Positions 7,176-25,105 of a stretch of DNA of 64,000 nucleotides are shown piece by piece. The stretch comes from Cellvibrio sp. UBA7671 (lineage in GTDB: Bacteria > Pseudomonadota > Gammaproteobacteria > Pseudomonadales > Cellvibrionaceae). The notes under the pieces were generated by a model that saw nothing but the letters and a program-made list of their open reading frames with translations, did not search any database and had not been told where the DNA came from. The stretch lies in the NCBI GenBank assembly GCA_002483145.1, contig DLHJ01000019.1, positions 310,001-374,000 of the forward strand. The letters are read 5' to 3'. Position numbers and translations under genes: made by a program. Within the stretch, counting starts at the first letter, position 1. Every line of letters starts with the position of its first letter.

Positions 7176-7627
7176 GCTGACCTATGCGTCGCTGGGTACG
7201 TGAATAACCGTATGGCGAATGGCTATAGGCGGCAATTATAAAGGTTGTTATTGGTTTAGGGTCAATACCAGGTTGTTTTCATCAGTGCATTTTAGGGCGT
7301 TCACTGCATTAAAGTGGGGCGCTTGATGTCTGCATTGTGAAAAATAGGTAACCATGATGCGTTCGATTAGTGGATTTATCGAGTGCGACTTTTTTCTGCA
7401 GGATTTTTTTCACATTCTGTGTGTGCGCTTTTAGCGAAAAGTCGTTAATCAGCGTAGGTAGATTAATTCTTGGCCTGATAAATGCTTTGACTAAATATGC
7501 AGCAGAAGGGTATTCGCTAAAACTTCATGTGTCGTTTCACCTCCCGCTGCTAAAAACGTAATTTACCTATTAGTAATTTATTTGCATATTCGTACTTTAC
7601 TCATGAGTGATTCGCATGGAGGTAGTA
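7176..7627. other. 452-base non-coding interval upstream of the exopolysaccharide plus-strand operon
   Basis: AT-rich, with no convincing gene; a 63-codon open frame at 7370-7561 lacks a ribosome binding site and any family resemblance. It probably carries the promoters of the divergent YgjP-like gene and of the exopolysaccharide operon, with a leader of 100 bases or more before the priming transferase. No riboswitch or recognisable operator was found by eye. Confidence 0.6.
7487..7516 (+). promoter_or_regulatory. Candidate sigma-70 promoter of the exopolysaccharide plus operon
   Basis: TTGACT (7487-7492) resembles the -35 consensus, with TATTCG (7511-7516) 18 bases later as a poor -10. It is the best pair seen in the interval, but the -10 is weak (3 of 6), so an activator or another sigma factor may be used. 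Confidence 0.3.
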
Positions 7628-9085
7628 ATGAGCGATTTATCGGTAGAAGGCGTTGCGGTCAATCCCATTGGCTTATCAAGTGAACCGCCTGTGGTTCGCT
7701 TCCATCATTCGAAAATACTTGCGCTATTTCGCGCGCTCGATAGCGCCCTCATCGTATTTATGCTGTGGGGTTGCCTCAAATTATTGGGGTTAGAGTGGAA
7801 TAATATTTACACCGGCTTTGCTATTAGCGCGGTGATTATTTTCGGTTTTTTTGCCGAGAGTAATGAAGTGTATTATTTGTGGCGTGGCCACTCGATGATT
7901 GATTTATCCATTCGTTTATTCCTCGCGTGGTTTGCTACCTTATTGTTCTTGGTTTTGTCACTGGTAGTAGTTTATCCATTTACGACATTGAGTTTACTGG
8001 CGATATCTGTCTGGTTCGTAACAACCCCCGGGGTGATGATTGCGATGCATATCGGGCGGCGGCTGTTGCTGGCCAAATTGCGTGCAAAGCCTACTGAACC
8101 GCGCAGAGTTGCGATTGTAGGTGCTAATGATTTGGGTCTGCGGCTAATTAATTCCATGTCTGTTATGCCTTGGTTGGGTTACAAGGTGACTGGTTTTTAC
8201 GACGACCGGGCACCTAGCAATGATGTGGGGCGCCGCCTGTTTGGAAAGAACATTGAAGTGAAAGGCGGTCTGGAACAACTGTATCAGGATGCGCACGATG
8301 GCAAGATTGATATTGTTTTCGTGGCGCTCCCTATGCGTGCGGAGTTGCGTATGCATTCGGTGATTGATCGCTTGGCCGATACGACAGTCTCCCCCTACGT
8401 GATTCCCGACGTATTCAGTTTTGACTTGTTACATTCGCGCCTGACTTGTTTGCAGGGCATTCCTGCGCTGAGTATCTACGATTCGCCGCTGGTGGATAAC
8501 AGCTGGGCGAAACGTTTGGAGGATCTAGTGCTGGGGCTGGGTATTTTAATGGTACTGGCGATTCCTATGTTATTGATTGCTGTCGGTGTAAAGATTACAT
8601 CGCCTGGGCCCATTTTTTTCAAACAGACTCGTTACGGCATGGGGGGCGATCGCATCAAAGTGTGGAAGTTCCGCTCCATGACGGTATGTGAAGATGGCGC
8701 TAATGTTGCACAAGCAAAGCGTGCGGATCCACGTATTACGCCTTACGGAAATTTTTTGCGTCGCACATCGCTCGATGAGTTGCCGCAATTGTTTAATGTG
8801 ATCTCCGGTAGTATGTCGCTTGTTGGCCCGCGTCCACACGCCGTTGCACATAACGAATTTTATCGTGGCCAAATTAAAGGATATATGTTGCGTCATAAAG
8901 TGAAGCCTGGCATTACCGGGTTGGCGCAAGTGAATGGCTTTCGCGGTGAGACCGAAACGTTAGACAAAATGTCTGGCCGTATTGCTTATGACTTGGAATA
9001 CATCCGCAATTGGTCGGTGATTTTGGATATCAAAATTTTATGGAAAACTATTTTCAAGGGTTTCGTCGGACAGAATGTTTATTGA
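7628..9085 (+). CDS. Undecaprenyl-phosphate glucose phosphotransferase (GumD/WcaJ/EpsB-like)
   Basis: 485 residues from ATG 7628. The open frame extends to GTG 7607, but TGGAGGT at 7617-7623 lies 4 bases before ATG 7628. The layout is that of polyprenyl glycosylphosphotransferases: about four N-terminal membrane helices (to ~residue 135), a Rossmann-like domain (VAIVGANDLGLRLINSM), one further helix near 310, then the catalytic bacterial sugar transferase domain with PIFFKQTRYGMGGDRI, VWKFRSM, SLDELPQLFNV and SLVGPRPHA. Such enzymes load the first sugar phosphate on undecaprenyl phosphate at the inner membrane. With the gum-like glycosyltransferases downstream, glucose-1-phosphate is the likely donor group, as for xanthan GumD. 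First gene of the plus arm; overlaps the next gene by 11 bases. Confidence 0.9.
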   Translation: MSDLSVEGVAVNPIGLSSEPPVVRFHHSKILALFRALDSALIVFMLWGCLKLLGLEWNNIYTGFAISAVIIFGFFAESNEVYYLWRGHSMIDLSIRLFLAWFATLLFLVLSLVVVYPFTTLSLLAISVWFVTTPGVMIAMHIGRRLLLAKLRAKPTEPRRVAIVGANDLGLRLINSMSVMPWLGYKVTGFYDDRAPSNDVGRRLFGKNIEVKGGLEQLYQDAHDGKIDIVFVALPMRAELRMHSVIDRLADTTVSPYVIPDVFSFDLLHSRLTCLQGIPALSIYDSPLVDNSWAKRLEDLVLGLGILMVLAIPMLLIAVGVKITSPGPIFFKQTRYGMGGDRIKVWKFRSMTVCEDGANVAQAKRADPRITPYGNFLRRTSLDELPQLFNVISGSMSLVGPRPHAVAHNEFYRGQIKGYMLRHKVKPGITGLAQVNGFRGETETLDKMSGRIAYDLEYIRNWSVILDIKILWKTIFKGFVGQNVY

Positions 9086-10232
9086 TGTGTGTGCAAAAAA
9101 AAAATGGCTGCGTTTGCTGCAATGGATGGTTATAGCACCACTTGCACCGGCAACCGTCGCAGCTCCCGATCGCGTTACCCTTTCGGTGGGCGCGCAAGAA
9201 TACTGGGACAGTAATTTTGCGCGCAGCGCTGATGTGGATTCAGAGCATTACACTCGCTCCGTAGTTTCGCTCGCACTAAATGAGCGATTGAGTAAACAGG
9301 ATTTTTCGCTTGGTGTGAGTGGCAACCGCTATGAGTACACGCAGCGTGATGATCTGGATGTCGATTTTGTTGAAGGCAATGCCAGTTGGCGCAGTGACTG
9401 GAGTTCACGCATTAAAACCTCGGTGAATTGGACGCGTGATGCCTATGCGGTAGATCGATTGGAATTTGCCGATAAAGATGTAGTTTCACTTAATAATTTT
9501 ACTGGCCAATTGACTCTCGGTACGCGCAAACATCTTGGCATTACTGTCGGCGCCCGGCAGGCAACGCAGACTCATTCCAATGACCTGCGCGAATCTCTGG
9601 ATTTTGATGAAGATGAATGGTTTGTGGCTGGCACTTACAACACACCCAATAAATCTTCATTAAATGTGCGCTTGCGCGAGGGTGAACGCTTGTATGTTCA
9701 CTTGGTGCCTGGTGATTTACGCGTGTTGGATTTTGATTATCGCCAGTTGGAGTTAGAAGGTAACTGGGCACTCACGCGCAAGACGCAATTGGGATTTACC
9801 CTGGGACGCTTCAAGCGCGAAGGAGAGATCAACGCCGGCACTGGTACTCAAGCGCTGGTAGATTTGGGCTGGTCAGTCAGCGAAAAGCTCAGCTTTTCAC
9901 TCAGCTACAGCCAGAGTGAACCTGCTGTTGGTGAAACATCAGATTCACCGGCGGATGTGCGCACCAGCAAACTTGCACTGAGCTGGGAGCCTTCGCCCAA
10001 ATGGTTACTCAGCATGGATGCTGCCTATAGTGAACAGACTTACCTCCAGCGTTTGATGGAACCGGCGCGTGCTGAAACCATCACGGCAGTTAGTCCCTTG
10101 ACGCTGACCTACCGTTTCTCTGATTTGCTCAATATTCGCCTCGATAGCCAGTGGGTGGATCGCAAATCGCCACTGTTTTACCGAGATTATGACTATGCAC
10201 TGGCCAGCCTGGGGCTGACGCTGGTTTTCTAA
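9075..10232 (+). CDS. EpsL-like outer-membrane beta-barrel protein of exopolysaccharide export
   Basis: 385 residues with a signal peptide (basic KKKWLR, hydrophobic core, probable cut after ATVA near residue 29). The mature part is rich in alternating polar/aromatic strands (for example SLNVRLREG, KLSFSLSYSQSEP, WLLSMDAAYSE) and ends in LGLTLVF, a terminal aromatic expected of an outer-membrane barrel. Size, composition and position after an EpsB-like transferase match the EpsL family of exosortase-associated polysaccharide loci. It may form or support the polymer exit channel; this is inference. ATG 9075 overlaps the previous gene; GTG 9087 is an alternative. A run of ten A residues (9095-9104) lies near the 5' end. 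Confidence 0.72.
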   Translation: MFIDVCAKKKWLRLLQWMVIAPLAPATVAAPDRVTLSVGAQEYWDSNFARSADVDSEHYTRSVVSLALNERLSKQDFSLGVSGNRYEYTQRDDLDVDFVEGNASWRSDWSSRIKTSVNWTRDAYAVDRLEFADKDVVSLNNFTGQLTLGTRKHLGITVGARQATQTHSNDLRESLDFDEDEWFVAGTYNTPNKSSLNVRLREGERLYVHLVPGDLRVLDFDYRQLELEGNWALTRKTQLGFTLGRFKREGEINAGTGTQALVDLGWSVSEKLSFSLSYSQSEPAVGETSDSPADVRTSKLALSWEPSPKWLLSMDAAYSEQTYLQRLMEPARAETITAVSPLTLTYRFSDLLNIRLDSQWVDRKSPLFYRDYDYALASLGLTLVF

Positions 10233-10270
10233 GATATTGTTTGATGCATTGATTGCTTAAAGGAGTACCT

Positions 10271-11086
10271 ATGTTTAGACGTCTGGCTGCTTATCTGGAG
10301 ACACCGGCCGAGTTGAAGCCGCGTTTACCATTCCCCTATGTGGATCTCTACAACTGGATGCCCAAAGACGGACGCATTAATTTTGGTGATCATCTCGCCG
10401 AAATTGTGACACGCCAACTGCTGGCACTGCAGGGATTGAGTCTGGATCAGGAGGTGAGCCAATGTGCGCGTCTGCTGGCGATAGGCTCGATCTTGCAAAA
10501 CAGTACCGATGGCGATCACATTTGGGGTAGCGGCTGGAATGGCAAGGTGCCAGAGTCGATGTTCAAATCCCGGAAGCTCAATGTGCATGCTGTGCGCGGG
10601 CCTTTAACCGGGGAGTTTCTGCGCAGCCGCGGCTTTGTGGTGCCGGAAGTTTACGGTGACCCGGCACTGTTGGTGCCGCATTTGTTCAAGGGACGTTTTA
10701 GTCCCAATCCCCAGCGCGATTATGTGTTTGTGCCCAATCTCCATGATTTGTCGATCCTGCCAAATGGCACCCCAAATGTTATTTCACCATTACAGGGGTG
10801 GAATAGGGTGATTGAGCAGATCCTGCAAGCCAAACTGGTGCTGGCCAGTTCGTTACATGGGTTGATTATCGCTGAGGCTTACGGAATTCCTGCACGTTAC
10901 GTGCGCCTGTCGCAGACGGAGGATCCGTTCAAGTACAAGGATTATTATCTGGGGAGCGGCAGGCTTGAGTCAGAGCTGCAATTTGCCAGTTCCATTGACG
11001 AGGGGAAGGAGATGGGCGGGATGCCCGGATTGCGCTTTGATCATCAGCCATTGCTGAATGCGTTTCCACTGCAGCTATGGCGATAA
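10271..11086 (+). CDS. GumL-like exopolysaccharide ketal pyruvyltransferase
   Basis: 271 residues from ATG 10271, which has AAAGGAG at 10259-10265; the frame also extends to TTG 10253. Polysaccharide pyruvyltransferase features: GRINFGDHLAEIV near the start, LLAIGSILQ, WGSGWNGKVPE, VHAVRGPLT, EVYGDPALLVP and SSLHGLIIAEAYGIPAR. The order and wording closely resemble xanthan GumL as remembered, including FKYKDYYLGSGR near the C-terminus. The family transfers pyruvate from phosphoenolpyruvate to a terminal sugar as a 4,6-ketal, adding negative charge to the polymer. It acts in the cytoplasm on the lipid-linked repeat unit. Last gene of the plus arm, followed by a hairpin terminator. Confidence 0.88.
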   Translation: MFRRLAAYLETPAELKPRLPFPYVDLYNWMPKDGRINFGDHLAEIVTRQLLALQGLSLDQEVSQCARLLAIGSILQNSTDGDHIWGSGWNGKVPESMFKSRKLNVHAVRGPLTGEFLRSRGFVVPEVYGDPALLVPHLFKGRFSPNPQRDYVFVPNLHDLSILPNGTPNVISPLQGWNRVIEQILQAKLVLASSLHGLIIAEAYGIPARYVRLSQTEDPFKYKDYYLGSGRLESELQFASSIDEGKEMGGMPGLRFDHQPLLNAFPLQLWR

Positions 11087-11108
11087 ATTGAGTTTATCTT
11101 GTCTCTGA

Positions 11109-11137
11109 ACTCCCGCGCAGGCGGGAGTTAGTTTTTT
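11109..11137 (+). terminator. Rho-independent terminator of the exopolysaccharide plus operon
   Basis: Stem ACTCCCGC / GCGGGAGT with a GCAG loop, then TTAGTTTTTTG. The T-run is only on the plus-strand side, so it mainly ends the pyruvyltransferase transcript; no equally clear terminator was seen for the convergent minus-strand operon. A smaller inverted repeat, GATAAA / TTTATC, spans 11082-11098 just before it. Confidence 0.8.
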
Positions 11138-11164
11138 GTCCCTCGAGTAACCCGTACATCACTT

Positions 11165-12655
11165 CTACACCAACCTTAGTAACCGTTGTAAATAATTGAT
11201 TACCGGTTTTGCTCTGGCTGGAGCCATAGCGGCGCTTTCGCCGAGAAAATGTTTGGTCTCCTGCCGGAAGATACTGGACATAAGGGCGACGTAACTCAGT
11301 GCGCCCAAACCCGCCAGCAGCAACAGGCGAACCCCCAGGGCAAGGTCGCCAGGCAGGGTGTATTTGGCGAGCAGCACTATTCCCAGCATCATCAGTGAAG
11401 CTGCAAAAGTGGGCGCGATAGTACGTAGTTGCCGGCTGATATCCACCGCGAATACCTGCTTGAAAAAATACATATTGAAGAAAATGCTGAGGTAAGTCCG
11501 CAGGGCAAAACCGGCTGCCGCTGCGACTATCCCGTAGGGCACCAACAGAAATCCGAGCAGGCAATTCAGTGCAAAAGTGATGCTGGCGAGGATCATTACC
11601 CGCTGTGAATGTCCGCCTGCGGTGAGCGCTGCGTTGACCTGATAGCCTATGACCAACGGCGCTATACCCAGTGCCAACAATGTCATCACCTGGCCGCTTT
11701 GTGCCCATTTTTCGGTGAACGCGAGCTGGATAAATTCTGGCCCCAAAGCAGCTGCACCAAAAAAAATCGGGAAAGTAAAATAGGCGCTCATGCGCATCAC
11801 CCGGAGGGTTCCCTGGGCGCGCTGTTCCCGTTCGCTCATGCGCGCTAATGCCGGTAGCAGGGTCTGTTCAAAGGGTTTGAGCACAATTTCCTGCAGGATA
11901 AACAGCGCCCGTCCACCGACACGGAAAAACCCCAGTGCGGCTGGGCCGAGCAGCAGGCCGACCAGCATTTCATAAATCTTGGAGGCGAAGTTGCTGATCA
12001 TCTGCGCCAGCGTCAGTGGTGTGGAAAAGGCCAGAAGGGCACGCGCGTGGGCGAGCGAAAATTGCAAGCCGGGTAGCCAGCGGGCGCTGTGCAAGGTCAC
12101 CAGCGTCACTACCAGTTGGTTGAGCAATTGCTGCCAGACCAGTGCCCACACCCCATAACCCTGGAACGCCAGAACCACGCCCACCAAACCTGCGAACAGG
12201 CTACCGACCACAGTGCGTAAAGCGATGGCGCGGAAATTAAATTCGCGTTTGAGCTTCCCCTCGTGCACGGCCTTTACGCCTTCCAGTAAAAACACTATCG
12301 ACAAGACTTGCACCAGCAGTTCTGCACGCGCGTCGTAGTAGTAGGCGATCACGGGTGCGGCGATAAAAAACACCAGCAGTGTCACCAGCGCGGCCAGCAG
12401 CAGGTTGAGATAAAAACAGGTGGCGGCATAGCGTTCATCCCACTCGGGATAGCGCACTATTGCTTGTGGCAGCCCGGCATTCACAAGGATCTTTCCCAAC
12501 TCCACCACAATCAGCGCAAAAGCCACCAAGCCGATTTCTTCGGGCGCCAGCAGGCGCGAGAGGATAATAAAAATCACAAAGCTGATCAGGCTGTTGCCGC
12601 TTGCCGCGGCGCTCATCCAGAGGGTGCTTTTGCCAAAACTTTTTTTCAGGCTCAT
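11165..12655 (-). CDS. Wzx-type polysaccharide flippase (GumJ-like)
   Basis: 496 residues, almost entirely membrane helices (about 12-14), beginning KKSFGKSTLWMSAAASGN and containing LSRLLAPEEIGLVAFA and the VGLLLGPAALGFFRVGGRAL region typical of the MATE/PST oligosaccharide flippase group. It should move the undecaprenyl-linked repeat unit across the inner membrane to the Wzy polymerase. It is the last gene of the minus-strand exopolysaccharide operon, 64 bases after the GumI-like gene. The functional pairing with GumJ is from position and topology rather than specific residues. Confidence 0.87.
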   Translation of the reverse strand: MSLKKSFGKSTLWMSAAASGNSLISFVIFIILSRLLAPEEIGLVAFALIVVELGKILVNAGLPQAIVRYPEWDERYAATCFYLNLLLAALVTLLVFFIAAPVIAYYYDARAELLVQVLSIVFLLEGVKAVHEGKLKREFNFRAIALRTVVGSLFAGLVGVVLAFQGYGVWALVWQQLLNQLVVTLVTLHSARWLPGLQFSLAHARALLAFSTPLTLAQMISNFASKIYEMLVGLLLGPAALGFFRVGGRALFILQEIVLKPFEQTLLPALARMSEREQRAQGTLRVMRMSAYFTFPIFFGAAALGPEFIQLAFTEKWAQSGQVMTLLALGIAPLVIGYQVNAALTAGGHSQRVMILASITFALNCLLGFLLVPYGIVAAAAGFALRTYLSIFFNMYFFKQVFAVDISRQLRTIAPTFAASLMMLGIVLLAKYTLPGDLALGVRLLLLAGLGALSYVALMSSIFRQETKHFLGESAAMAPARAKPVINYLQRLLRLV

Positions 12656-12719
12656 GGGCTACTTAGGTCAGTGGCTATTAGGGCGATTGATCAGGGGCGA
12701 TTGGTTATGCGCCGGGCAA

Positions 12720-13802
12720 TTAGCGCGACTTGCCAGCCTCCGGTATTTCCGCTGTGTCAGTTGGTGGCGTGGTGAGTTGGCGATAAAAATCCAGGGTGCT
12801 GGCGGCGAGTCTATCCCAATTGTAGTTGTCGAGTGGGCAGATGGGCGGGCGCGTGCTGTGCTCCAGCGCGACCAGTGCATGTTGCAGGCAGCTTGGTGTC
12901 AGCTCCCCGGCGTAACCGTAAATCCACTGCAGGCCGAGGTTTTTTTGCAGGTCGATAATCGCCCCCATATGCGGTGCTATCACCGGCCGGTTGTACGAGA
13001 GTGCCAGCAGCAGCGCACCCGAGTTAAGGATCGCTTTGTAGGGCAGGATCACCACATCTGCCGCGCTCATATACACGTTCAGTTCACTGTCGGGGATAAA
13101 ACGCAAAAACAGGCGTGTATTAGCACCTTTGAGTGTCTCCAGCTCTGCGCGCAAGGCATCGCTGTCGGGCGTGCCGGCGATGACTAATTGATAGTCGCCC
13201 AGATGGGCTTCATTGAACGCTTTCATCAATCCGGGAATATTTTTGTAGGGCTTTATCATGCCTACAAATAGCAGCACCTTCTTTTTGGTGTTCAGCGCCA
13301 GCTTCTGTTTTGCAGCCACTTGGTCCATGGCCGGTGGGTAGCAGCTGCGATAGTGGCCGTGGGGGATTATTGCGTAGCGGGTGTTTTCCGGCGGTTGATA
13401 GCGCTGGTAAAACGCAGCCTTGTTTGCCTCGCTCATAAAGATAAAACCATCGCAGCGGCGGATAAACCAGCCCATAAACCATTGCGATAACTTTGGCCGT
13501 ATGGCGTCGTGGGGTGCGGTATTGTGCACTGTCCACACCAGTTTGCTGCCCTTGAGTTTGAGCGCGCAGACCATCATTCCCAGCAGCAGCATGCGCTGCC
13601 AGGTTTTTACCAATCCCCGTTGGTTGATATAGCCGTCCGGCCAGTGAAAGTGCACCAGATCCGTTGGTTCTTGCAGGGCTTTTGCGTGGCGATACTCTCC
13701 AACACCGACCCCCAATTTTTGCAGTTCGCGGTAGAGCAGGGCGTTGTAGGGATTGACCTTTTCGTTGCTGAACGCAGGTGCGGCGAGAATACGCATAACC
13801 AT
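12720..13802 (-). CDS. Glycosyltransferase, GumI-like (probable beta-mannosyltransferase)
   Basis: 360 residues with a GT-B layout. The N-terminus MRILAAPAFSNEKVNPYN is followed by VHFHWPDGYINQRGL, a C-terminal nucleotide-sugar domain (VLLFVGMIKPYKNIPGL, LFLRFIPDSELNVYMSAADVVILPYK) and GALLLALSYNRPVIAP. The N-terminal wording and position suggest the GumI group, which adds the terminal beta-mannose of the xanthan side chain, the sugar that GumL pyruvylates. The classical EX7E motif of GT4 enzymes is not obvious. Its start overlaps the stop of the GumM-like gene by one base (TAATG), indicating coupled translation. Glycosyltransferase activity is firm; donor and linkage are inference from context. 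Confidence 0.78.
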   Translation of the reverse strand: MVMRILAAPAFSNEKVNPYNALLYRELQKLGVGVGEYRHAKALQEPTDLVHFHWPDGYINQRGLVKTWQRMLLLGMMVCALKLKGSKLVWTVHNTAPHDAIRPKLSQWFMGWFIRRCDGFIFMSEANKAAFYQRYQPPENTRYAIIPHGHYRSCYPPAMDQVAAKQKLALNTKKKVLLFVGMIKPYKNIPGLMKAFNEAHLGDYQLVIAGTPDSDALRAELETLKGANTRLFLRFIPDSELNVYMSAADVVILPYKAILNSGALLLALSYNRPVIAPHMGAIIDLQKNLGLQWIYGYAGELTPSCLQHALVALEHSTRPPICPLDNYNWDRLAASTLDFYRQLTTPPTDTAEIPEAGKSR

Positions 13803-14569
13803 TAACCTTTGCTGGAGCCACTGTTTGTGTAATTGCCGGTGCGCTTGCCGGTGCGCAGACAGAGGGCGAGGAACAAGCCGATATCCAGGGTGTAGCGGCG
13901 GGCGAGTCGGGCGGGTTCAAGGCAAAGGCGATAGAACCACTCCAGACGCAGGCGGCGGATCCAGTCGGGAGCGCGCGGTTTATCGCCGGCCAGGAAATCC
14001 AGCAGGGCGCCGACACCAAACAATAGCGTCACCTTCAAATTGGCGCGCTGCTGCAATATCCAGCGCTCCTGCAATGGGTTGCCCATAGCCACCAGCAGCA
14101 CATTGGCACCGCTGTTGTTGATTTGGTTAATCAGGGCTTGGGTGTCTTGCCCCTGGCTATAACCATCGCTGACACCTACCACATTCACGCCAAATTCCGT
14201 GCGCAGGGTGTTGGCGGCACGCAGGGCGATACCGGGTTTGCCGCCAAACAGGTACACCCGCCCCTGCTGCTGGATGCTGTGCAAGAATGCCGGGATAAAG
14301 TCGGTTCCATTGAGGTTCTGCGGGAAGCGGGTGCGGTGTACCAGCCAGGTGCCTATATCCACCCCGATACCGTCATTGATGATCAAGGTACTCTGTGCCA
14401 TCTGCTCCTGCAGCCCCTGGCATTGCACAATAAAATTGGTATTGGCAAAAAAAAGCGCCGTTTGCTCACCATGCTCCAGATGACCTTGCAATTGCTGTTC
14501 AAGCTCATTGCCTGTGGTGCGCAGCAGCTTGAAACCGCCGAGGGCGAGGTACTTGTCCGCTTGGCTCAT
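13802..14569 (-). CDS. WecG/TagA/CpsF (GT26) glycosyltransferase, GumM-like
   Basis: 255 residues with the GT26 signature set: FFANTNFIVQCQ, IINDGIGVDIGTWLV, NGTDFIPAFL, YLFGGKPGIA, DGYSQG and VAMGNPLQERWI. Family members add the second sugar to an undecaprenyl-pyrophosphate-linked sugar at the inner membrane face; GumM adds a beta-1,4-glucose to give cellobiosyl lipid. Its ATG overlaps the preceding gene's stop (ATGA), and its stop overlaps the next start. Assignment as GumM rather than a ManNAc transferase (WecG) is based on the surrounding xanthan-like set. Confidence 0.85.
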   Translation of the reverse strand: MSQADKYLALGGFKLLRTTGNELEQQLQGHLEHGEQTALFFANTNFIVQCQGLQEQMAQSTLIINDGIGVDIGTWLVHRTRFPQNLNGTDFIPAFLHSIQQQGRVYLFGGKPGIALRAANTLRTEFGVNVVGVSDGYSQGQDTQALINQINNSGANVLLVAMGNPLQERWILQQRANLKVTLLFGVGALLDFLAGDKPRAPDWIRRLRLEWFYRLCLEPARLARRYTLDIGLFLALCLRTGKRTGNYTNSGSSKG

Positions 14570-15747
14570 ACCACCAACTCCGTATCGGCAAAGGCATTGG
14601 GGGTGAGCATGCGCTCGGCTACTTGCTCCCAGTTGAGTACCGGTTGGGCGCGCAGTGGCTGTTCAGGGTGAAGTGCGCGCTCAATCGCAGCGGCGATGGA
14701 GTCTGCATCCCCCAAATCATAGCCAAAGCGGTTGCTGTAATCGGCCGCGATAAAATGCGGGCAGATCGCCGGTACCCCAAAAAAGGCATATTGGATTAAC
14801 TTCATGGACGTATCGCGCAGGTATACCGGCAAATTGATACTGGAATAGGGGGCGATCCCCAACTGCGCGTGTTTGATATAGGGCAGGGTTTGGGCAAAGG
14901 GCATCTCGCCGTAGAGATGCACATTGGGACCGTAATCCGGATGTGCTGGTTGTCCACAGCCAATAATGTGGAACTGGATATCTGGAAAACGGCGCGCTGC
15001 AAGTACAAAAAATTCCGGGTCAAATAGCATAGAGCCGACCGACACCGCGTGGATGCCTTCACCATAAGGAGATGGGTCGGCCTGCTCCGCCACGGCATGG
15101 TCTATACCGTGGGGCACAAACGCCAGGTTGTGGCGGCTGGGGATGCCTTCAGCCAGCGCCTTGGATGGCAGGGCGATGGCATCCATCTGCGGCGCGGCGC
15201 GCGCAAACGCCTGGTTCACATACTCGGCCACATTGATGGTATCCAACGCATCCGAGGCGCGGTAGAGCACTTTGGCCGACGGGTTTAGCTGCTTGATCAG
15301 ATCGAAGAAGATCGGCGCTACACCGCTTTCCAGCAGAATCACATCCGCCTCGCGGATCCAGCGGCGCAAGACCTGATTGCGCCCGCGGCTGTAAAGGCGG
15401 TACATCAGGTTTTCCAGCGGGCGTAGCCAGGGGCGGCGGGTGTTAAAGGGGTGATAAAGCGTCTTCCATAAATAGCACTCCACACCGTAATAAAAGCCGA
15501 TTTGATTGGCCTCATTGTCGAGCGACAGGCGCGGGTCATGCGTGTAGCGCGACAGCTTGCTGTAGCGCAGCGAGAAGAACCGGGTGGTGCCGAGTTTGGC
15601 CAGCTCACGCGTAATAAAATGGATATTCGCCCGGCGCGGGGAGCGGTAGTCGTGGGCGGAGAGCACCAAAAAAACGGGTTTTGAGGCAGCAGTTACTGTG
15701 TTTGCCGGTGTAGGCGCAGGTGCCGGGGCGTTTACAGTCTGGTTCAT
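14566..15747 (-). CDS. GumK-like glucuronosyltransferase
   Basis: 393 residues from ATG 15747, which has a strong AAGGAG; the open frame begins 78 bases earlier without such a site. After a Pro/Ala-rich N-terminus come FLVLSAHDYRSPRRANIHF, ITRELAKLG, FFSLRYSKLSRYTHDPRLS and, in the second half, VSVGSMLFDPEFF and FHIIGCGQPAHPDYGPNV. These resemble xanthan GumK (GT70), a membrane-associated GT-B enzyme that adds beta-1,2-glucuronate to the inner mannose. A glucuronate would make the polymer acidic. The gene lies between the GH5 endoglucanase and the GumM-like gene and shares a 4-base overlap with the latter. Confidence 0.85.
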   Translation of the reverse strand: MNQTVNAPAPAPTPANTVTAASKPVFLVLSAHDYRSPRRANIHFITRELAKLGTTRFFSLRYSKLSRYTHDPRLSLDNEANQIGFYYGVECYLWKTLYHPFNTRRPWLRPLENLMYRLYSRGRNQVLRRWIREADVILLESGVAPIFFDLIKQLNPSAKVLYRASDALDTINVAEYVNQAFARAAPQMDAIALPSKALAEGIPSRHNLAFVPHGIDHAVAEQADPSPYGEGIHAVSVGSMLFDPEFFVLAARRFPDIQFHIIGCGQPAHPDYGPNVHLYGEMPFAQTLPYIKHAQLGIAPYSSINLPVYLRDTSMKLIQYAFFGVPAICPHFIAADYSNRFGYDLGDADSIAAAIERALHPEQPLRAQPVLNWEQVAERMLTPNAFADTELVV

Positions 15748-15811
15748 GATGCACTCCTTAAAGTGATGTTGATCTTTAGGTGACTCATTGGTTGCAGGTG
15801 ACCCTGGGCGT

Positions 15812-16858
15812 TCAATCTGTTGCATCCTTCGGGGGCAGTGGCGGACTTAGATCGCCTCCCCGGTAAAATGCGGCTTTCAGGGGTGCCCATTGAGGTGAGG
15901 GGTTGAGTAGATCGCTATTTAACGCAAAGGGGTAATCACCCCACCAGCGGCCGCCGGCCCAATAGCTCCAACCTTTCCATTCGTTCCCCCGCATGAGCTT
16001 CAGGAAGTACGCCAGCGTTTCCATGCAGGGCTGGGTGGCGGCCATACCGAATTCACCCAGAAAGAGTTGCAGTTCGTTGTCGCGCGCCCATTGGCTGATG
16101 CGTGCAAAAGGTAGGTCAAAATGGGTTGGTGGATAACAGTCTTGCGCGGTACCGGAATAGTCGCGGTCGGCGTATTGGTGCACTTCGATTACGGTGCGTT
16201 TGAGTGGGTCTTTGAGCCCGGCAAACGCTATGGCGTTGGAGGCGCCATCTTGCTCACTAAACCAGCTGTGCAAACCGTTCCAGCCACCGCCACCCACCAT
16301 CACCAGATGGCTAAGCCCCGCCTTGCGCAACGCGGCAAGGGTACGTTTGGCCAGTGTTGCCCAGTCGGCCAGCGGGATATAAGCCGGTTCATTCATTAGC
16401 CCGAGGGCGACATAATCCGGATTACCCAGCGCGCTGGCCAGATTAACCCAGAGGTCCACAAACGCATCCTGTTGAGCGGCGCTGGTGATTGGCTCGCTGT
16501 AGTATTTGGCGTAGTTATGCACATCCAGTAACACACACAAATCGTGCATTTGTGCCTGGATGATGGTGGTTTGCAGACGCCTGAGTTCAGCTGCATCAAA
16601 CGCGAGATCCAGCCGTGGTTGCAGCCGCTCCCAGCGGAATGGCAGACGGATGATAGTGGCGCCCTGAGCGGCGACAAAGGCCAGTTCCTGGTTGGAGGGA
16701 TAGATGTAATCCTTGGCGATCACACCGGGTAGTTTTTTGCTGTTGAACTCCGCTCCGGCCAGATTCACGCCAGTGAGCCGGGTGTTGTCCAAACAGCCCG
16801 CCGAGACGCCAAAAGGCATCAGCAGCGAGAGCAGAAGAATCCATCCAAACCTGTTCAT
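15812..16858 (-). CDS. GH5 endoglucanase (cellulase-like), secreted
   Basis: 348 residues. Signal peptide at the N-terminus (WILLLSLLMPFGVSA), then a GH5 TIM barrel: TGVNLAGAEF, RLPFRWERLQP, VLLDVHNYAKYY, LMNEP with the acid/base Glu, HQYADRDYSG, LFLGEFG with the nucleophile Glu, and WSYWAGGRWWG at the substrate cleft. There is no carbohydrate-binding module or polyserine linker, unlike typical secreted plant-wall cellulases of Cellvibrio, which fits a dedicated periplasmic or cell-surface role. The start overlaps the gumH-like stop by 4 bases, so it is translated as part of the polymer operon. Likely role: trimming or releasing a beta-1,4-glucan-backbone polymer. The exact substrate is unproven. 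Confidence 0.9.
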   Translation of the reverse strand: MNRFGWILLLSLLMPFGVSAGCLDNTRLTGVNLAGAEFNSKKLPGVIAKDYIYPSNQELAFVAAQGATIIRLPFRWERLQPRLDLAFDAAELRRLQTTIIQAQMHDLCVLLDVHNYAKYYSEPITSAAQQDAFVDLWVNLASALGNPDYVALGLMNEPAYIPLADWATLAKRTLAALRKAGLSHLVMVGGGGWNGLHSWFSEQDGASNAIAFAGLKDPLKRTVIEVHQYADRDYSGTAQDCYPPTHFDLPFARISQWARDNELQLFLGEFGMAATQPCMETLAYFLKLMRGNEWKGWSYWAGGRWWGDYPFALNSDLLNPSPQWAPLKAAFYRGGDLSPPLPPKDATD

Positions 16859-17985
16859 GGCCGCCGCCCCAGTTGTTCATAGAGTGCCAGATAGCGGTCA
16901 GCTACCTGCGGCCAGGCGTAGCGCTGGGCAAATTCCATGGCCGCAGCACGGCGCACTTGATAACCCGCATCACCCTGGGCATGAAGTTGCACGAGCATAT
17001 TGATACTTGCCGAAGGGGCTGAGTCCAGCTCGGTGAGGCTGCCCAGGCCGGACTCATCCACCAGGCGGCGGAAGGGAGGAATATCGCTCAGGATGGGGGT
17101 TAAGCCGGCACTCATTGCTTCGATTGGGGCGATCCCAAATCCCTCGTGGCGTGACAGGCAGAGGAAGTAGCTCGACTGGCGGATCAACTGGCGGATTTCT
17201 TCATCGCTTGGGTTGGGAACCAATTGCACTGCGCCCTGTAGTCCCAAGCTGTCGATTTTCTGTTGCAGCTCGACGGCCGTGTGGTCGTACTCGCGTCCGG
17301 CGACAGTGAAACGCCACTCGGGATGCTGACGATGCAGAGCGGCAAACAGCTCCAACGCGGGTAGCAAGCCTTTGTTGATCGACCAGCGGCCAAAGTAAAT
17401 CAGGCTCGGTTGTAACGCTGTTGCACCCTGGTTGGCGTACTTTTCGATATCTACCCCGTTTTCAATTACCTGCAATTTGTCCTGCCCCATGATTTGGCCA
17501 AACAGCTGGCCATCGTTGGCGCTGGTTGCCACTACCTGGCTGTAGGCATGGGCGGAGAGGCGGGTGACGGTGTTGAAATAGGCGAGTTTGGCGCGAGAGG
17601 CGAAGCGGGTGTGAAAGAAACCGCCGTGAGTGGACAGCAGCAGTGGGCGTCGGTGCAACCATTGGGTCGCGGCGAGGAAGTCGTAAAAAAAATCCACTCC
17701 GTGGACATGGATCAGGTCGCTGTCACTAACATACTTGAGCACTGTGGGGCAGAGCGGGTAACGGCTGGAACCGCGATAGGGCAGACGAATAACCTCAATA
17801 CCATCAATCAGCTCGCGCGCCGGCAACTGCTCGTCAGTATTGCGGAACAAGCGGTCGAGGGTAATTATTCGCGTCGCCTTGTGCCCTTGGCGCAACTGGT
17901 GCCGGGCAATATTACGCACGACTTCTTCCATACCGCCAATCGAAGGTAAATATTGACGTACCACATGGGTGACACTGACGGTCAT
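16855..17985 (-). CDS. GT4 glycosyltransferase, GumH-like alpha-mannosyltransferase
   Basis: 376 residues. The N-terminus VTHVVRQYLPSIGGMEEVV, LIHVHGVDFFYDFLA and LLLSTHGGFFHTRFASRAK closely recall xanthan GumH, the alpha-1,3-mannosyltransferase that adds the first side-chain mannose to the cellobiosyl lipid. The C-terminal domain has LIYFGRWSINKGL and the GT4 EX7E motif in SRHEGFGIAPIEAMSAG. It overlaps the polymerase gene before it and the endoglucanase gene after it by ATGA junctions. Retaining GT-B chemistry with GDP-mannose is expected from the family. Confidence 0.87.
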   Translation of the reverse strand: MTVSVTHVVRQYLPSIGGMEEVVRNIARHQLRQGHKATRIITLDRLFRNTDEQLPARELIDGIEVIRLPYRGSSRYPLCPTVLKYVSDSDLIHVHGVDFFYDFLAATQWLHRRPLLLSTHGGFFHTRFASRAKLAYFNTVTRLSAHAYSQVVATSANDGQLFGQIMGQDKLQVIENGVDIEKYANQGATALQPSLIYFGRWSINKGLLPALELFAALHRQHPEWRFTVAGREYDHTAVELQQKIDSLGLQGAVQLVPNPSDEEIRQLIRQSSYFLCLSRHEGFGIAPIEAMSAGLTPILSDIPPFRRLVDESGLGSLTELDSAPSASINMLVQLHAQGDAGYQVRRAAAMEFAQRYAWPQVADRYLALYEQLGRRP

Positions 17986-19277
17986 GGGTTACCTCGGTAG
18001 TTGGGAGTGGGAAGTGGCAGCGAAGTGGCATAGCCCGGCACCGATGTGCGGGTGGCCAGGCGCGCCGGGTTTTGCAGCAGACATCCAAGCATGCACCAGA
18101 GTAATGCTGAGGTCTTGAAGGCAAACAGCGAAGAGCCACTGATGGCCAAAATGAGTGAGATATAAAGTGCGATAAAAGCACGAAAGCGGCGGCCGCGTTC
18201 GTCGGGCATCGGCTGCAACCAGATGCTAAACCAGAGTAACAGGCATAGTGGCAGGCCAAAACCGGCAATCAAGTAGGCGTAACCCATGTCGCCGTAAAAG
18301 CGAGGTGTGGTTATGGCGAGCAACAGTTCAACGTCAAATTCCAGCAATGCCCAACCACTCAGGGCAATTCTGCCCATAAAGTTGTCGCCGTATTCGGATG
18401 TGGTTACCCCGACCAGCAGGACAAGCCCAATCGCAATGAAGGGAGCGAGCAAGGCCAGATTGAGTGCCGCACCGTGTAAAAAAACGCGAGTCAGCAGCAT
18501 TAAGGGCACTAGTATGAGCGCGAAACGGGAATCGCACAGGATGATCATCACCACAGCTGAGCTCACAAAAAACACGCCTTTGCGCCAATCGCGTAGATCG
18601 CGGCTCAGCCCCCAGGCAGCAGTGATAGTGGCGAAGTTGCCCAGGGATACCGGCTCCAGAAATACCGATGACACCCTGTGGCTACCCAGCAGGCTTGGCA
18701 ATAGCGTGCGCCCTATACCCTCCGGGCGGGTGCCGTTGAGCTGCAGTTTGCTCTCGCGCACATAATCCGTAATGGGTGCCAGGTTTCCGGTGCTGACGTA
18801 GTAGCTGAAAATATCGAAAAAACGTGTGTAAGTGTCGAGCATCAACAGCTCAAATAACCCCAGGCCAAGCACTACCGTAACAATGCTTACCAATGCGCGA
18901 TCCACCACCTCCGGTCGGCCGAGGTTGCAGCCCAGCCAGAAAAAGCACAGGGGAATGGCAAGGTCGCGGAAGGTTTTGGGATTGAGTTGGCCGCTGGCGA
19001 TGGCCCCTATGCAGAAATAAGCGACCGCTACCAGACCGATAATGATGAGCCCGGGTCGCAGGCGGCGAACTAACATGGGCAGGCAAGCGAGCATTATCAA
19101 CGCCTCAGTCATACCCACAACCGCCACCGATGTGCGCAGACCGAAGGTATTCAGCAGGCACAACACCGCTTGATAGGCCACCGCGGCGAGCAGTATGCCG
19201 GTCACCCACCATTGATCCTGGTTGGCAGCAGTTGTTGCCAACGGGAGCGGATTCGTAAGGTGATGCCCGTTGTTCAT
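17982..19277 (-). CDS. Wzy-like polysaccharide polymerase (GumE-like)
   Basis: 431 residues with about ten to eleven hydrophobic segments and one larger periplasmic loop (around residues 145-215, containing YVRESKLQLNGTRPEGIGRT), the arrangement of O-antigen/exopolysaccharide polymerases. It carries little sequence conservation beyond topology, as usual for Wzy proteins. The only polymerase-like gene in the locus, it is placed between the kinase-like ATPase and the gumH homologue. It should link repeat units in the periplasm. AGGAG overlapping the preceding stop supports ATG 19277. Confidence 0.78.
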   Translation of the reverse strand: MNNGHHLTNPLPLATTAANQDQWWVTGILLAAVAYQAVLCLLNTFGLRTSVAVVGMTEALIMLACLPMLVRRLRPGLIIIGLVAVAYFCIGAIASGQLNPKTFRDLAIPLCFFWLGCNLGRPEVVDRALVSIVTVVLGLGLFELLMLDTYTRFFDIFSYYVSTGNLAPITDYVRESKLQLNGTRPEGIGRTLLPSLLGSHRVSSVFLEPVSLGNFATITAAWGLSRDLRDWRKGVFFVSSAVVMIILCDSRFALILVPLMLLTRVFLHGAALNLALLAPFIAIGLVLLVGVTTSEYGDNFMGRIALSGWALLEFDVELLLAITTPRFYGDMGYAYLIAGFGLPLCLLLWFSIWLQPMPDERGRRFRAFIALYISLILAISGSSLFAFKTSALLWCMLGCLLQNPARLATRTSVPGYATSLPLPTPNYRGNP

Positions 19278-19288
19278 ACAAGCGTCTC

Positions 19289-20221
19289 CTACGTCTGTTT
19301 TACCTGGCCGAGCATGGCGGCGCCCAACAAACGCACACCCAGATCACGCAACCTTTGGCAAATGGCTGCCAGTGCCTGGGAGCGGGTCTGGTGTTGACGT
19401 GCGAGTAACAAGGCAGCGCCAGCCTGCGCAGCGACTATCTGCGCATCGCGGTTGGAATCCATGGGAGTAGTGCTGATTAGGGTGATATCAAACTGCTGCG
19501 TCAATGCCGCAAGCCGCTCTTGGTAACGTTTACCTGAAAGCAGTTCTTGGGGATTGGGCGCGCGCGTGCCAGCGGGCAGTACCCATAGCGAGCGCACCAT
19601 TGCAATATTGATTGGAGCTACCGCCGTGCGGCTGGCGAGCCAATCAGACAAACCGGGCGTATGCTCTGGCAGATGCAACAAGCGATTGAGTTGGGGTGAA
19701 CGCAGGTTGGTATCGATTAGCAGGGTGCGCAGTCCCAATTGCGCAAAGCAGATCGCAAGATCGGCGGCTGCCAGCGCCGAACCTTCGGCATCTTCGGCAC
19801 TGACCAGCGCCAGCGAACGCTGCGACTGGTTGTTGAAATAGCGCAGCATTAACTCACTGCGCAGACTGCGCAGCGCTTCTGCCTGGGGGCTATCGGGTTG
19901 GAACAGGGCGCTCAGGCGATGGTCGAGCTGGCTCGACTGCGCAGGAGTTTGTGTATAGGCAAATTGCTCGGCGAGTATGGAGTTGATGTCCTCTACCTGC
20001 ACCAGTCCAAGCTTTAATGCTGCCTCGCCAAAGCGCAGCCCTTCCCGTTTTTGCAAGGCGAGGATTAGCGTCAGGTCTTTCTGACCGAGTTTGCCTGCCG
20101 CCACCAGCATAGGTCCCATTTGAGTGGAAGATTGATTGGCGCTAGTGGGGATGCTGCTGGAGTGCAAGGTATGGGCAAGCCGGCCATCGCCATTGAGGAG
20201 CTGTGCTGTGAGATCGTTCAT
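19289..20221 (-). CDS. EpsG-like BY-kinase homologue with degenerate P-loop
   Basis: 310 residues in two parts. Residues ~30-85 (LVAAGKLGQKDLTLILALQ... EDINSILAEQF) resemble the N-terminal domain of type II secretion/EpsG-type ATPases. Residues ~105-305 resemble CpsD/BY-kinases (SLRSELMLRYF, LLIDTNLRSPQL as Walker A', GLSDWLA, LPAGTRAPNPQELL). In the Walker A position the protein reads SAEDAEGSALAAADLA: the lysine and the Ser/Thr of GK[ST] are missing. There is also no C-terminal tyrosine cluster. It is therefore probably a non-catalytic partner of the adjacent GumC/Wzz protein. The ATG overlaps the Wzz stop. Confidence 0.78.
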   Translation of the reverse strand: MNDLTAQLLNGDGRLAHTLHSSSIPTSANQSSTQMGPMLVAAGKLGQKDLTLILALQKREGLRFGEAALKLGLVQVEDINSILAEQFAYTQTPAQSSQLDHRLSALFQPDSPQAEALRSLRSELMLRYFNNQSQRSLALVSAEDAEGSALAAADLAICFAQLGLRTLLIDTNLRSPQLNRLLHLPEHTPGLSDWLASRTAVAPINIAMVRSLWVLPAGTRAPNPQELLSGKRYQERLAALTQQFDITLISTTPMDSNRDAQIVAAQAGAALLLARQHQTRSQALAAICQRLRDLGVRLLGAAMLGQVKQT

Positions 20222-21636
20222 ATCTTGGCCTCCTTCAATACAGCAGAGCCTCTGCGGGGTCGGTAGTTAGCACGGTTGTAGGTTGCAGGGATGTGTGCGA
20301 GTAGCACCAGTCCCAGCCCTTGCTCAAGGTCAAGTGGATGGCGGATTCGTGGATCAAACCATTCCCAACCCAGTGCAATTGCAGTGCCTAATAACAGCCC
20401 GGCTACGCACGCCAAAACCAGCGTTATGGCCGGTTTGGGGGAGGTTGGGCGCGCTGGAGGTGTAGCGCTATTGAGTACCGCAACATCGGTAGTGGCGATC
20501 TGGCTTTCCAGGCGCGACTGCGCGCTGCGCGCCAGTGCTGCGTCATAGGCGGCCTGGGCATTATCGGCCTCCTGTTTGAGCAGGGTGAGTTCGTTGCGGT
20601 TGCGGCTGAGTTGTAACACCAATTCTTTCTGACGCGCCAACTCGATTTTGAGCTGCTCTTCACGCGCTTGTGACAATTCCACCGAGGACTGCAAGCTGCC
20701 GCTGATTAGCTCCAGCATAAGATCCATTTGCTTTTTCAGTGTGTCTACTTCACTCAGTGCCTGCTTGTATTGCGGGTGGTTTTCCCCTACCTGGCGCGCC
20801 ACTTCAATCAAGCGCGCTTGCGCTTGCGCCAAAGTAGCCGCCAGATTTTGTACTTGTGGGTTATCCAGCCCACGGGTATCTAATTGGCCTTTTTTGGGAT
20901 TGGCCGCGGTGTTGGCAATCTGGTCGCTGCGGCTTTGGGAGTTCAAACGCTCGTTTTGCACTGCAATCAGCATGGACGACAAGTCAGCTAGCTTGGCTGA
21001 CTCCAAATCCAGCCGATCCGAAGAGGCGAGGATGTTGTGCTCCTCCTGATAGGTGGAAAGCAGGTTTTGTTTCTCGATCAATTCATTGCGTAGCCCGGTC
21101 AGTTGTTGGTTGTACCACTGGCTAGTCTGTTTGGCGGGCTCAATGCGCAATTCCAGGTTGGTGATCATATAGGCCTGCGCAAAGGCATTGGCGAGCTGCG
21201 CAGCCAGCGCCGGATCTTGCGCCTTGAAGCTGATGGTCAATACGCTGCTATCGCGCTTGGGGGTGACGCCCAGACCCTGCGCGAGAAAGCTAAGTATAAG
21301 ACGTTGGTCGCGGATGGCATCGCCGGTGAGTTTGACTGCTTTGAGCATCGCCGGGTGGCTGGTTAACCGCAGGTCGGTGATGACTTTTATAGCAACATTG
21401 CGGCTGCGGATGATATCGGTCTGTGTTGCCAGATAGCCGCCAGTGATACGTCCGGGTTGGGCTTGGCCACTAATAGGATCTAGCCCCCGGCTGTCAATTA
21501 GCAGGTCGGTCGCGGCGGTGTAGGATTTGGGGGTGAGTAAGATCAGCAGCAGGGCAGCAGCTAGAGCTGCAATAGTGGTGGCGATAATTGCCCATCGGCG
21601 TGCACGCAAAATACCGATCAGAGTAGTAGGGTTCAT
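20218..21636 (-). CDS. Chain-length determinant / polysaccharide co-polymerase (GumC/EpsF-like)
   Basis: 472 residues. Wzz architecture: first membrane helix at ~residues 15-33, a periplasmic Wzz domain (YTAATDLLIDSRGLDP), a long coiled-coil (about 175-400) rich in Gln, Ala and Leu, and a second helix near residue 425 (ITLVLACVAGLLLGTAIAL) preceded by PPARPTSPKP. It controls polymer length and links the Wzy polymerase to the outer-membrane exporter. No kinase domain is fused; the next gene encodes the separate, P-loop-deficient homologue. GGGAG precedes ATG 21636. Confidence 0.88.
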   Translation of the reverse strand: MNPTTLIGILRARRWAIIATTIAALAAALLLILLTPKSYTAATDLLIDSRGLDPISGQAQPGRITGGYLATQTDIIRSRNVAIKVITDLRLTSHPAMLKAVKLTGDAIRDQRLILSFLAQGLGVTPKRDSSVLTISFKAQDPALAAQLANAFAQAYMITNLELRIEPAKQTSQWYNQQLTGLRNELIEKQNLLSTYQEEHNILASSDRLDLESAKLADLSSMLIAVQNERLNSQSRSDQIANTAANPKKGQLDTRGLDNPQVQNLAATLAQAQARLIEVARQVGENHPQYKQALSEVDTLKKQMDLMLELISGSLQSSVELSQAREEQLKIELARQKELVLQLSRNRNELTLLKQEADNAQAAYDAALARSAQSRLESQIATTDVAVLNSATPPARPTSPKPAITLVLACVAGLLLGTAIALGWEWFDPRIRHPLDLEQGLGLVLLAHIPATYNRANYRPRRGSAVLKEAKI

Positions 21637-21648
21637 ATATTGCTCCCG

Positions 21649-22485
21649 TTAAAAGAGGCTTTCCTTAATCACCAGGACATCGCCATCCAATACCCGGTCA
21701 TCGGGCTTGGCACGTAACTCCTGAACCGATCCATCTGCCCGCTGGCGGAACACTTTCACACTGCTCTCGCTGGCGCGCGCTGTTGGACCACCCCCGGCGC
21801 TAAGTGCCTGACGCACATTGAGTGGGCGGTCGAGGCTGTACATGCCCGGGGTATGGACTTCGCCGTTCAAATAAAATCGCCCGGCGTTGGGCACATAGAG
21901 TGTATCGCCATCCTTCAGCCACACCGTTGGCGATGGATCTGCTGCCTGATTTAGCAATTGCTGTAAATCATATTCCGTTCGCTCCTGACGGCCATCCGGG
22001 GCCATGCGCATCAGCACTAGCCGCTCACTGCCATTGGCAGCTATGCCACCCGCCCAGGCCAGCGCCTGGGTCAGGCTGGTTGGTCCTTCCAATACCAGCT
22101 TCCCTGGGTTATTGACCTTGCCGAGAATCGCGACTACCTGGCTGCGGTATTTGGTTACCAAGAGATTTACCTGGGCATTTTTAAGGACGTTGTCTTGCTC
22201 GTAGCGATTGGCGATCAGGGCAGCGGCAGCTGTGCTGGTTTTGCCCGCAATGGGCAAATTGCCCAGTAGGGGTACCATCACCATGCCATCAGCGCTGACC
22301 TGAGTTTCCGCAGTCAGATCCGGCTGCCCGTACACGCTGATACGAAGTTCATCGCCGGCGCCAATTAAATAGCTGGCATTGCTGGCTGTTTGCGCATGCA
22401 CTTGTACTAGCGCCCCCAGCATGACCAAGCCTAGCGTCCATCGGTAAAATTGTCGGTAGCACTGCCCGCACCACTGGAAAACCAT
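21649..22485 (-). CDS. Outer-membrane polysaccharide export protein (GumB/Wza/EpsE-like)
   Basis: 278 residues with an N-terminal signal (LGLVMLGALVQVHAQ). No lipobox cysteine is present, so it may not be lipidated like Wza. The polysaccharide export domain begins YLIGAGDELRISVYGQPDL and is followed by SLBB-type repeats (VAILGKVNNPGKLVLEG and FYLNGEVHTPGMYSL). It should form the export channel across periplasm and outer membrane together with the GumC-like protein. It is the first gene of the minus-strand operon. A short leader before ATG 22485 carries AAGGAC as a modest ribosome binding site. Confidence 0.9.
   Translation of the reverse strand: MVFQWCGQCYRQFYRWTLGLVMLGALVQVHAQTASNASYLIGAGDELRISVYGQPDLTAETQVSADGMVMVPLLGNLPIAGKTSTAAAALIANRYEQDNVLKNAQVNLLVTKYRSQVVAILGKVNNPGKLVLEGPTSLTQALAWAGGIAANGSERLVLMRMAPDGRQERTEYDLQQLLNQAADPSPTVWLKDGDTLYVPNAGRFYLNGEVHTPGMYSLDRPLNVRQALSAGGGPTARASESSVKVFRQRADGSVQELRAKPDDRVLDGDVLVIKESLF

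Positions 22486-24302: not shown

Positions 24303-25105
<803 letters not shown>

Follow-up and report, generated by a model that had tools for sequence, protein, structure and literature searches.

Organization of the locus

The region analyzed here is a 64,000-nucleotide stretch (the window) of contig DLHJ01000019.1 of Cellvibrio sp. UBA7671, in which an original prediction, made from the sequence alone, had seen a nearly complete xanthan-like polymer locus with homologues of GumB, C, D, E, H, I, J, K, L and M. At positions 7607–22485 we find 13 genes in two convergent operons, all of them intact open frames (Table 1). The plus-strand operon comprises three genes, among them those for the priming enzyme and the pyruvyl transferase, whose placement in a separate operon had been correctly anticipated. 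The ten genes of the minus-strand operon extend from 22485 down to 11165 and are transcribed in the order EpsE-, EpsF- and EpsG-like, GumE- and GumH-like, GH5, GumK, GumM- and GumI-like and Wzx; at six of the nine junctions neighbouring genes overlap, by 1–14 bases, whereas the other three leave 11, 12 and 64 bases between genes. The converging ends of the operons are separated by 78 bases containing a terminator-like hairpin found in a consensus scan, and it is at this hairpin that the two predicted operons meet.

The gene order is, as foreseen, unlike that of the Xanthomonas gum operon. GumF and GumG had been reported missing, and this holds for the locus, since none of the 13 products matches an acyltransferase family (Pfam and NCBIfam, E 0.001; no search for GumF/GumG was made elsewhere in the genome). 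The genes named in the prediction are all intact and the similarity of their products goes far beyond chance, as the match of GumK to PDB 2hy7 illustrates, but the list had omitted the EpsL-like barrel, the GH5 protein and the EpsG-like protein. The GumD-like gene starts at 7607, the previously given 7628 being a later in-frame start.

Table 1. Genes and features of the locus, with positions in the window
Feature	Position	Strand	Evidence
GumD/WcaJ-type priming glucose-1-phosphate transferase	7607..9085	+	TIGR03023 509 bits, cut-off 411; median identity 38% (45 Xanthomonadaceae copies)
EpsL-like outer-membrane barrel, candidate exit pore	9075..10232	+	TIGR03014 104 bits, cut-off 275; AlphaFold model 18 strands, pLDDT 75; matches to outer-membrane barrels
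GumL-like pyruvyl transferase	10253..11086	+	PF04230 E 4e-11; median identity 40% (44 Xanthomonadaceae copies)
Terminator-like hairpin between the convergent operons	11108..11129		9 base pairs (6 G-C) and a plus-strand T tail; from consensus scan only
Wzx flippase in GumJ role	11165..12655	-	PF13440 E 1e-71; median 28% to 46 Xanthomonadaceae copies
GumI-like glycosyltransferase	12720..13802	-	median 29%; reciprocal best; W68, N108, H112 kept
GumM (WecG/TagA/CpsF family)	13802..14569	-	PF03808 E 2e-54; median 50%
GumK glucuronosyltransferase	14566..15825	-	PF22059 (GumK_N) E 1.3e-66; PDB 2hy7 E 8e-144; 56% identity
GH5 endoglucanase, secreted-looking	15812..16858	-	PF00150 E 3e-45; PDB endoglucanases to E 1e-71; NEP and GEF motifs
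GumH alpha-mannosyltransferase	16855..17985	-	median 52% to 45 Xanthomonadaceae copies; EX7E motif visible
GumE-like polymerase (Wzy)	17982..19277	-	no Pfam family; best self-score fraction 0.13 in Xanthomonadaceae, 0.22 outside
EpsG-like protein (N-terminus MshEN-like, kinase domain lacking the P-loop)	19289..20221	-	TIGR03029 263 bits, cut-off 314; 5htl E 1.5e-8 with profile
EpsF-like chain-length/co-polymerase protein (predicted as GumC)	20218..21636	-	TIGR03017 391 bits, cut-off 423; closer to EpsF of Mitsuaria than to two GumC proteins
EpsE-like OPX export protein (predicted as GumB)	21649..22485	-	TIGR03028 218 bits, cut-off 263; nearer Mitsuaria EpsE than two GumB proteins; no Wza_C match

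Enzymes of the repeat unit

A search based on GumK yielded 53 loci, three from the same genus, 46 from Xanthomonadaceae and four from elsewhere (individual loci carry L numbers below). Median identities were taken against the 46 Xanthomonadaceae loci; as these differ in length, an absent match may reflect a cut contig. The values are highest for GumK (57%, 46 matched), GumH (52%, 45) and GumM (50%, 45), followed by GumL (40%, 44) and GumD (38%, 45), and by sequence these five proteins are clear counterparts of the Xanthomonadaceae proteins. The sequence matches of GumK to the GumK_N family and to PDB 2hy7 make its identity unambiguous, and the GumD-like protein exceeds the curated cut-off of the glucose-1-phosphate transferase model TIGR03023; for the GumL-like protein no relative of solved structure was found at E 0.01. 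The predicted role of GumD, M, H, K and L as repeat-unit enzymes is thus clearly supported by the family matches and by median identities of 38–57%. As a gene set the assembly line gains further support from donor enzymes encoded elsewhere in the genome and from the linkage of GumI and GumL across the genus, both described below. The remaining proteins are more distant: GumI 29% (45 matched), GumE 29% (45) and GumJ 28% (46).

Since GumI gave the weakest match among the transferases, it was tested in three ways. With a Pseudoxanthomonas GumI as query the GumI-like gene was the sole match in the genome of the window (E 0.01). Conversely, a profile of the ten GumI copies of the genus found its best match at the gum locus in all four Xanthomonadaceae genomes searched (E 8e-46 to 7e-42), two of which gave one extra, far weaker match each. 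Finally, we inspected six residues named in a modelled GumI (W68, Y71, N108, H112, R179 and T260), of which N108 has been linked to acidic acceptors (PMC13104830, a preprint; this and the other papers cited by PMC number are represented here by extracts). In a comparison that left out L001–L017, the near-duplicate loci L018–L020 and L071, and the remote L091, W68, N108 and H112 are kept in all ten genus copies, whereas Y71 is replaced by Gly and R179 by Lys in all ten and T260 by Ala in nine. By these sequence criteria the assignment to GumI has fair support: the predicted protein is a reciprocal best match with half of the modelled residues in place, but it is distant and the other half differ.

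The polymerase and the flippase had been predicted as GumE and GumJ from topology and position. A GumE-like polymerase and a relative of the flippase are indeed present, but the GumE-like protein is nearer to its homologues in four of the six GumK loci outside the genus and the Xanthomonadaceae (137–188 bits, at best 0.22 of its self score) than to any from Xanthomonadaceae (at best 0.13), and GumJ is remote. The GH5 gene occurs in all 15 other loci of the genus and finds no match in the fetched Xanthomonadaceae stretches; it is 40–42% identical to GH5 proteins in four of the same six outside loci. Its nearest relatives in the PDB are endoglucanases, and a glycoside hydrolase or endoglucanase is also included in acetan-type clusters (PMC7961339, PMC5050591). 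The Cellvibrio protein may trim the backbone in the periplasm.

Distribution and capping genes in the genus Cellvibrio

The original prediction had proposed looking for the locus in other Cellvibrionaceae. GumK_N scores above its cut-off in 16 of 21 genomes of the genus and in 16 of 144 genomes of the family, every one of them in that genus, so that the locus recurs among close relatives and was seen in none of the other family genomes. Outside these samples, GumK_N was found in three of 398 genomes sampled across the phylum, the window's own among them, and in two of 299 genomes of one other order, one of which was the genome picked as centre.

Gene order is conserved over the 16 genus loci except for gained or lost capping genes and for L082, which is cut short and lacks GumE and three Eps genes. 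Searching the 21 genomes at E 1e-10 we find both GumI and GumL in eight, GumI only in three (one of them an incomplete genome with no GumK match), GumL only in none and neither in ten. Among the 16 loci the corresponding counts are eight, two, none and six (Fisher p 0.007, a value that ignores relatedness), and parsimony requires four changes each for GumI and GumL on a midpoint-rooted nine-gene tree with one node at 0.62 support, from which the split GumD of L075 was excluded. That GumL never occurs without GumI is what one would expect if the sugar added by GumI is the substrate of GumL. In some loci extra genes adjoin the flippase gene, namely a GT25 gene in five (three scanned with Pfam), another GT4 gene in five (one scanned), a second pyruvyl transferase gene in two (both scanned) and a DUF707-like gene, just below cut-off, in one. 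L078 has neither a cap gene nor an extra enzyme and would therefore make a four-sugar unit.

These observations bear on an alternative in which the core of two glucoses (Glc), mannose (Man) and glucuronic acid (GlcA) is that of xanthan while the GumI-like protein adds another sugar or linkage, giving an acetan-like or new acidic polysaccharide. Such a cap is suggested by GumI being the least similar transferase (29%), by the replaced residues of its modelled site and by the variation of caps within the genus. Given that W68, H112 and the acceptor-linked N108 (PMC13104830) are kept and that GumL is found only alongside GumI, we regard this alternative as rather unlikely.

The G+C content of the locus exceeds that of the fetched flanks in all 15 other genus loci (L075–L089), by +0.006 (L088) to +0.106 (L078), and that of the window locus lies above most of the rest of the window, which may point to an old acquisition from elsewhere. 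In L075 the GumD-like gene (700–2130) appears as two separate BLAST pieces and may be disrupted or carry a sequencing error.

Export proteins

The claim that the exporter consists of GumB and GumC is not borne out, as both proteins resemble EpsE and EpsF more closely than they do the tested GumB and GumC proteins of Xanthomonadaceae. On the EpsE model the gene product in the place of GumB scores 218 bits compared with 102 for one Xanthomonadaceae GumB, and on the EpsF model the product in the place of GumC scores 391 bits compared with 194–202 for two Xanthomonadaceae GumC proteins. In direct comparisons the EpsE-like protein reaches 155 bits with EpsE of Mitsuaria and at most 73 with two GumB proteins, and the EpsF-like protein 249 bits with Mitsuaria EpsF and at most 139 with two GumC proteins. 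The pair is accompanied at the locus by EpsG-like and EpsL-like genes.

The scores on the Eps models stay below the curated cut-offs, and the GumB and GumC proteins tested have EpsE and EpsF as their best models as well, so that the difference in export is one of degree. One could thus argue that there is no separate chassis and that the EpsE/F-like and GumB/C proteins belong to a single family whose members diverged within gum-type loci; in favour of this view, the best NCBIfam models are the same for the one GumB and the two GumC proteins tested. The proteins of the window score about twice as high on these models and are nearer to their Mitsuaria counterparts, EpsG- and EpsL-like genes lie alongside, and no EpsL match was accepted in seven Xanthomonadaceae genomes; we therefore give this explanation only a small chance. 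The locus is better described as a xanthan-type sugar line coupled to a different export chassis than as a rearranged gum operon because, besides the affinities of the EpsE/F-like pair, EpsG-like, EpsL-like and GH5 genes are added, GumE is nearer to proteins from outside the Xanthomonadaceae and GumJ is remote.

The EpsL-like protein matches outer-membrane barrels of many kinds, and an AlphaFold model from four sequences has 18 strands (pLDDT 75, pTM 0.63). The OPX protein has Poly_export and SLBB matches in Pfam and no Wza_C match. Since Class 3 OPX proteins are paired with 18-stranded porins in myxobacteria (PMC9603273), the modelled barrel is, by analogy, likely to be the exit pore of the polymer. 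A search for an EpsL counterpart with the single protein as query (E 0.01) gave a match in one of nine genomes, that of the genus member L020. A 16-row profile (E 0.1) likewise gave a match in one of nine genomes, seven of them from Xanthomonadaceae; this match (45 residues, E 0.09, with an internal stop) was taken as chance. The plasmid collection gave none.

The EpsG-like protein

A profile of 15 EpsG-like copies matches the tyrosine kinases CapB and Wzc (to E 2e-34). The GK[ST] P-loop, which Mitsuaria EpsG retains, is missing in all 15 readable copies (the window and 14 others; L090 and L091 were excluded from the alignment and L082 is cut short). In these copies the Walker B Asp is replaced by Ser, Asn or Cys and the Walker A' Asp is retained. 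With the same profile the N-terminus matches MshE (5htl). The MshEN receptor pattern for cyclic di-GMP (c-di-GMP) consists of two 24-residue motifs and a 5-residue linker; of the two copies scanned for the MshE-related motif, that of L077 reaches 44.4 bits and that of the window 33.7 bits (cut-off 38). The Arg of the first motif, which in MshE stacks on guanine (PMC5013675), is Arg in six of the 15 copies, Lys in seven and Gln in two, the window copy having Gln. The N-terminus thus resembles a c-di-GMP receptor domain, and the protein possibly has a sensing role.

A more speculative and still doubtful extension of these observations would be a family of xanthan-like polymers in Cellvibrio. All would share an invariant Glc-Glc-Man-GlcA core, and the cap would change from species to species, being Man that may or may not bear pyruvate, a sugar added by GT25 or GT4 enzymes, a cap involving a second pyruvyl transferase, or no cap at all; c-di-GMP would gate export via a conserved dead kinase turned into a pure sensor.

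Donor supply and genomic surroundings

An unlinked minus-strand cluster of the genome (L095, 7127–12308) contains phosphomannomutase-like, GalU, GMP/PMI and UDP-glucose dehydrogenase-like genes. The GMP/PMI, GalU and general sugar-dehydrogenase models are above cut-off and the specific CpsG and TuaD models below; judged by these matches, the enzymes together would supply UDP-glucose, GDP-mannose and UDP-glucuronate, the three donors for xanthan. For the dehydrogenase beside GMP/PMI the alginate enzyme AlgD was considered and rejected, the two best NCBIfam equivalog models being UDP-glucose dehydrogenases, both below their cut-offs.

The genome of the window contains a second exopolysaccharide cluster of the XrtA type (L096, 2800–7687), with an EpsB_2 priming enzyme, an XrtA deacetylase and a TviB-type dehydrogenase. 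A gene of the GH88 family (unsaturated glucuronyl hydrolases) lies at 27695–28870 of the window, about 5 kb past the locus; GH88-type enzymes can act on glucuronate side chains. A collagen-like protein with GNTGNTG repeats, whose N-terminus resembles a lipoprotein signal, is encoded at 24303–24815, and a RoxA-like cytochrome c protein (4935–6599) adjoins the locus on the side of the priming enzyme. On a plasmid of Sphingomonas paucimobilis a GumK homologue (41%; L098, 7986–9086) lies in an exopolysaccharide cluster whose edge carries an IS3 transposase.

Proposed pathway and relation to known systems

On sequence grounds the locus is best seen as a mosaic: its sugar line, GumI and GumL included, is of the xanthan type, its polymerase and glucanase resemble those of loci outside the Xanthomonadaceae, and its exporter is EpsE/F/G/L-like. 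We put the probability of the pathway proposed below, a Wzx/Wzy exopolysaccharide locus in which such a sugar line is combined with such an exporter, at roughly 0.7. Several points weigh against this. GumK was not seen in five of the 21 genus genomes. All four Eps matches fall short of the curated NCBIfam cut-offs (218/263, 391/423, 263/314 and 104/275 bits), and the tested Xanthomonadaceae GumB and GumC proteins have the same best models at lower scores. GumI is only 29% identical, with Gly for Y71 and Lys for R179 in every copy, GumE and GumJ are remote relatives (medians 29% and 28%), and the EpsG-like protein of the window is below the c-di-GMP motif cut-off and carries Gln for the first-motif Arg. 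That the locus is decaying and its polymer no longer made, as the lost P-loop, the two-piece GumD of L075 and the missing GumK of five genus genomes (two of them rated 100% complete) might suggest, is highly improbable, because all 13 genes of the locus in the window are open, the core genes and their order are maintained across 16 loci, and conservation extends to the protein without a P-loop.

From the gene likenesses read in the sequences we infer the donor, acceptor and linkage specificities and the roles of the barrel, the GH5 protein and the regulation as follows. GumD would put glucose 1-phosphate onto undecaprenyl phosphate, to which GumM would add a beta-1,4-linked Glc, GumH an alpha-1,3-linked Man and GumK a beta-linked GlcA; GumI would add the terminal Man and GumL would pyruvylate it. 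Wzx would flip the unit and the GumE-like Wzy would polymerize it into a cellulose-like backbone, which would leave the cell via EpsF, EpsE and the EpsL-like outer-membrane barrel. The GH5 glucanase would cut the backbone in the periplasm, thereby setting chain length or clearing stalled polymer, and the EpsG-like protein would be a dead kinase retained for regulation, possibly for c-di-GMP sensing.

Among known systems, the xanthan cluster gumBCDEFGHIJKLM of Xanthomonas and relatives resembles the Cellvibrio locus in GumD, M, H, K and L, more distantly in GumI, and in the Wzx/Wzy logic, whereas the Cellvibrio locus has two convergent operons in another order, no GumF/G, EpsE/F-like proteins in place of GumB/C, additional EpsG-like, EpsL-like and GH5 genes, and remote GumE and GumJ. 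Acetan and acetan-like clusters of acetic acid bacteria have GumK-, GumH-, GumM- and GumE-like genes and a glycoside hydrolase; as far as the extracts describe them, and compared by description only, they list aceP, aceQ and aceR, with gumI and gumL absent in Kozakia, whereas the Cellvibrio locus has GumI, GumL and the EpsE/F/G/L-like exporter (PMC7961339, PMC5050591). XrtB-type exopolysaccharide systems (NCBIfam; plasmid of Mitsuaria sp. 7) resemble it in the four Eps matches and, for Mitsuaria, in the order EpsE-F-G, but in Cellvibrio all these matches are below cut-off, there is no exosortase gene among the 13 and the EpsG-like protein lacks the P-loop. With Class 3 OPX exporters (PMC9603273) it shares, at the level of gene content and model, an OPX protein without Wza_C match encoded together with a predicted 18-stranded barrel. 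No Cellvibrio gum or xanthan locus was found in the open-licence PMC literature, and the extracts of one Cellvibrio paper (PMC7232360) contain nothing on a xanthan, gum or exopolysaccharide locus of this kind.

To sum up, the observation behind the original prediction is confirmed and its interpretation partly supported, the core idea remaining in place. According to the extract of a 2019 review, which cites earlier work, other organisms lack homologues of GumI and GumL (PMC6801904), and GumI is described in a 2026 preprint as the only GT94 member characterized experimentally (PMC13104830). Judged by sequence similarity, Cellvibrio likely supplies homologues of both at one locus in a genus outside the Xanthomonads. 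The natural losses of GumI and GumL within the genus order the two capping steps, and their diverged sequences offer material for working out specificity. The locus is also a possible source of xanthan-type polymers with other caps, and its EpsL-like barrel is a candidate for the pore through which such a polymer would cross the outer membrane. Moreover, it makes testable the question whether a conserved kinase homologue without a P-loop can control polymer export, perhaps through c-di-GMP.

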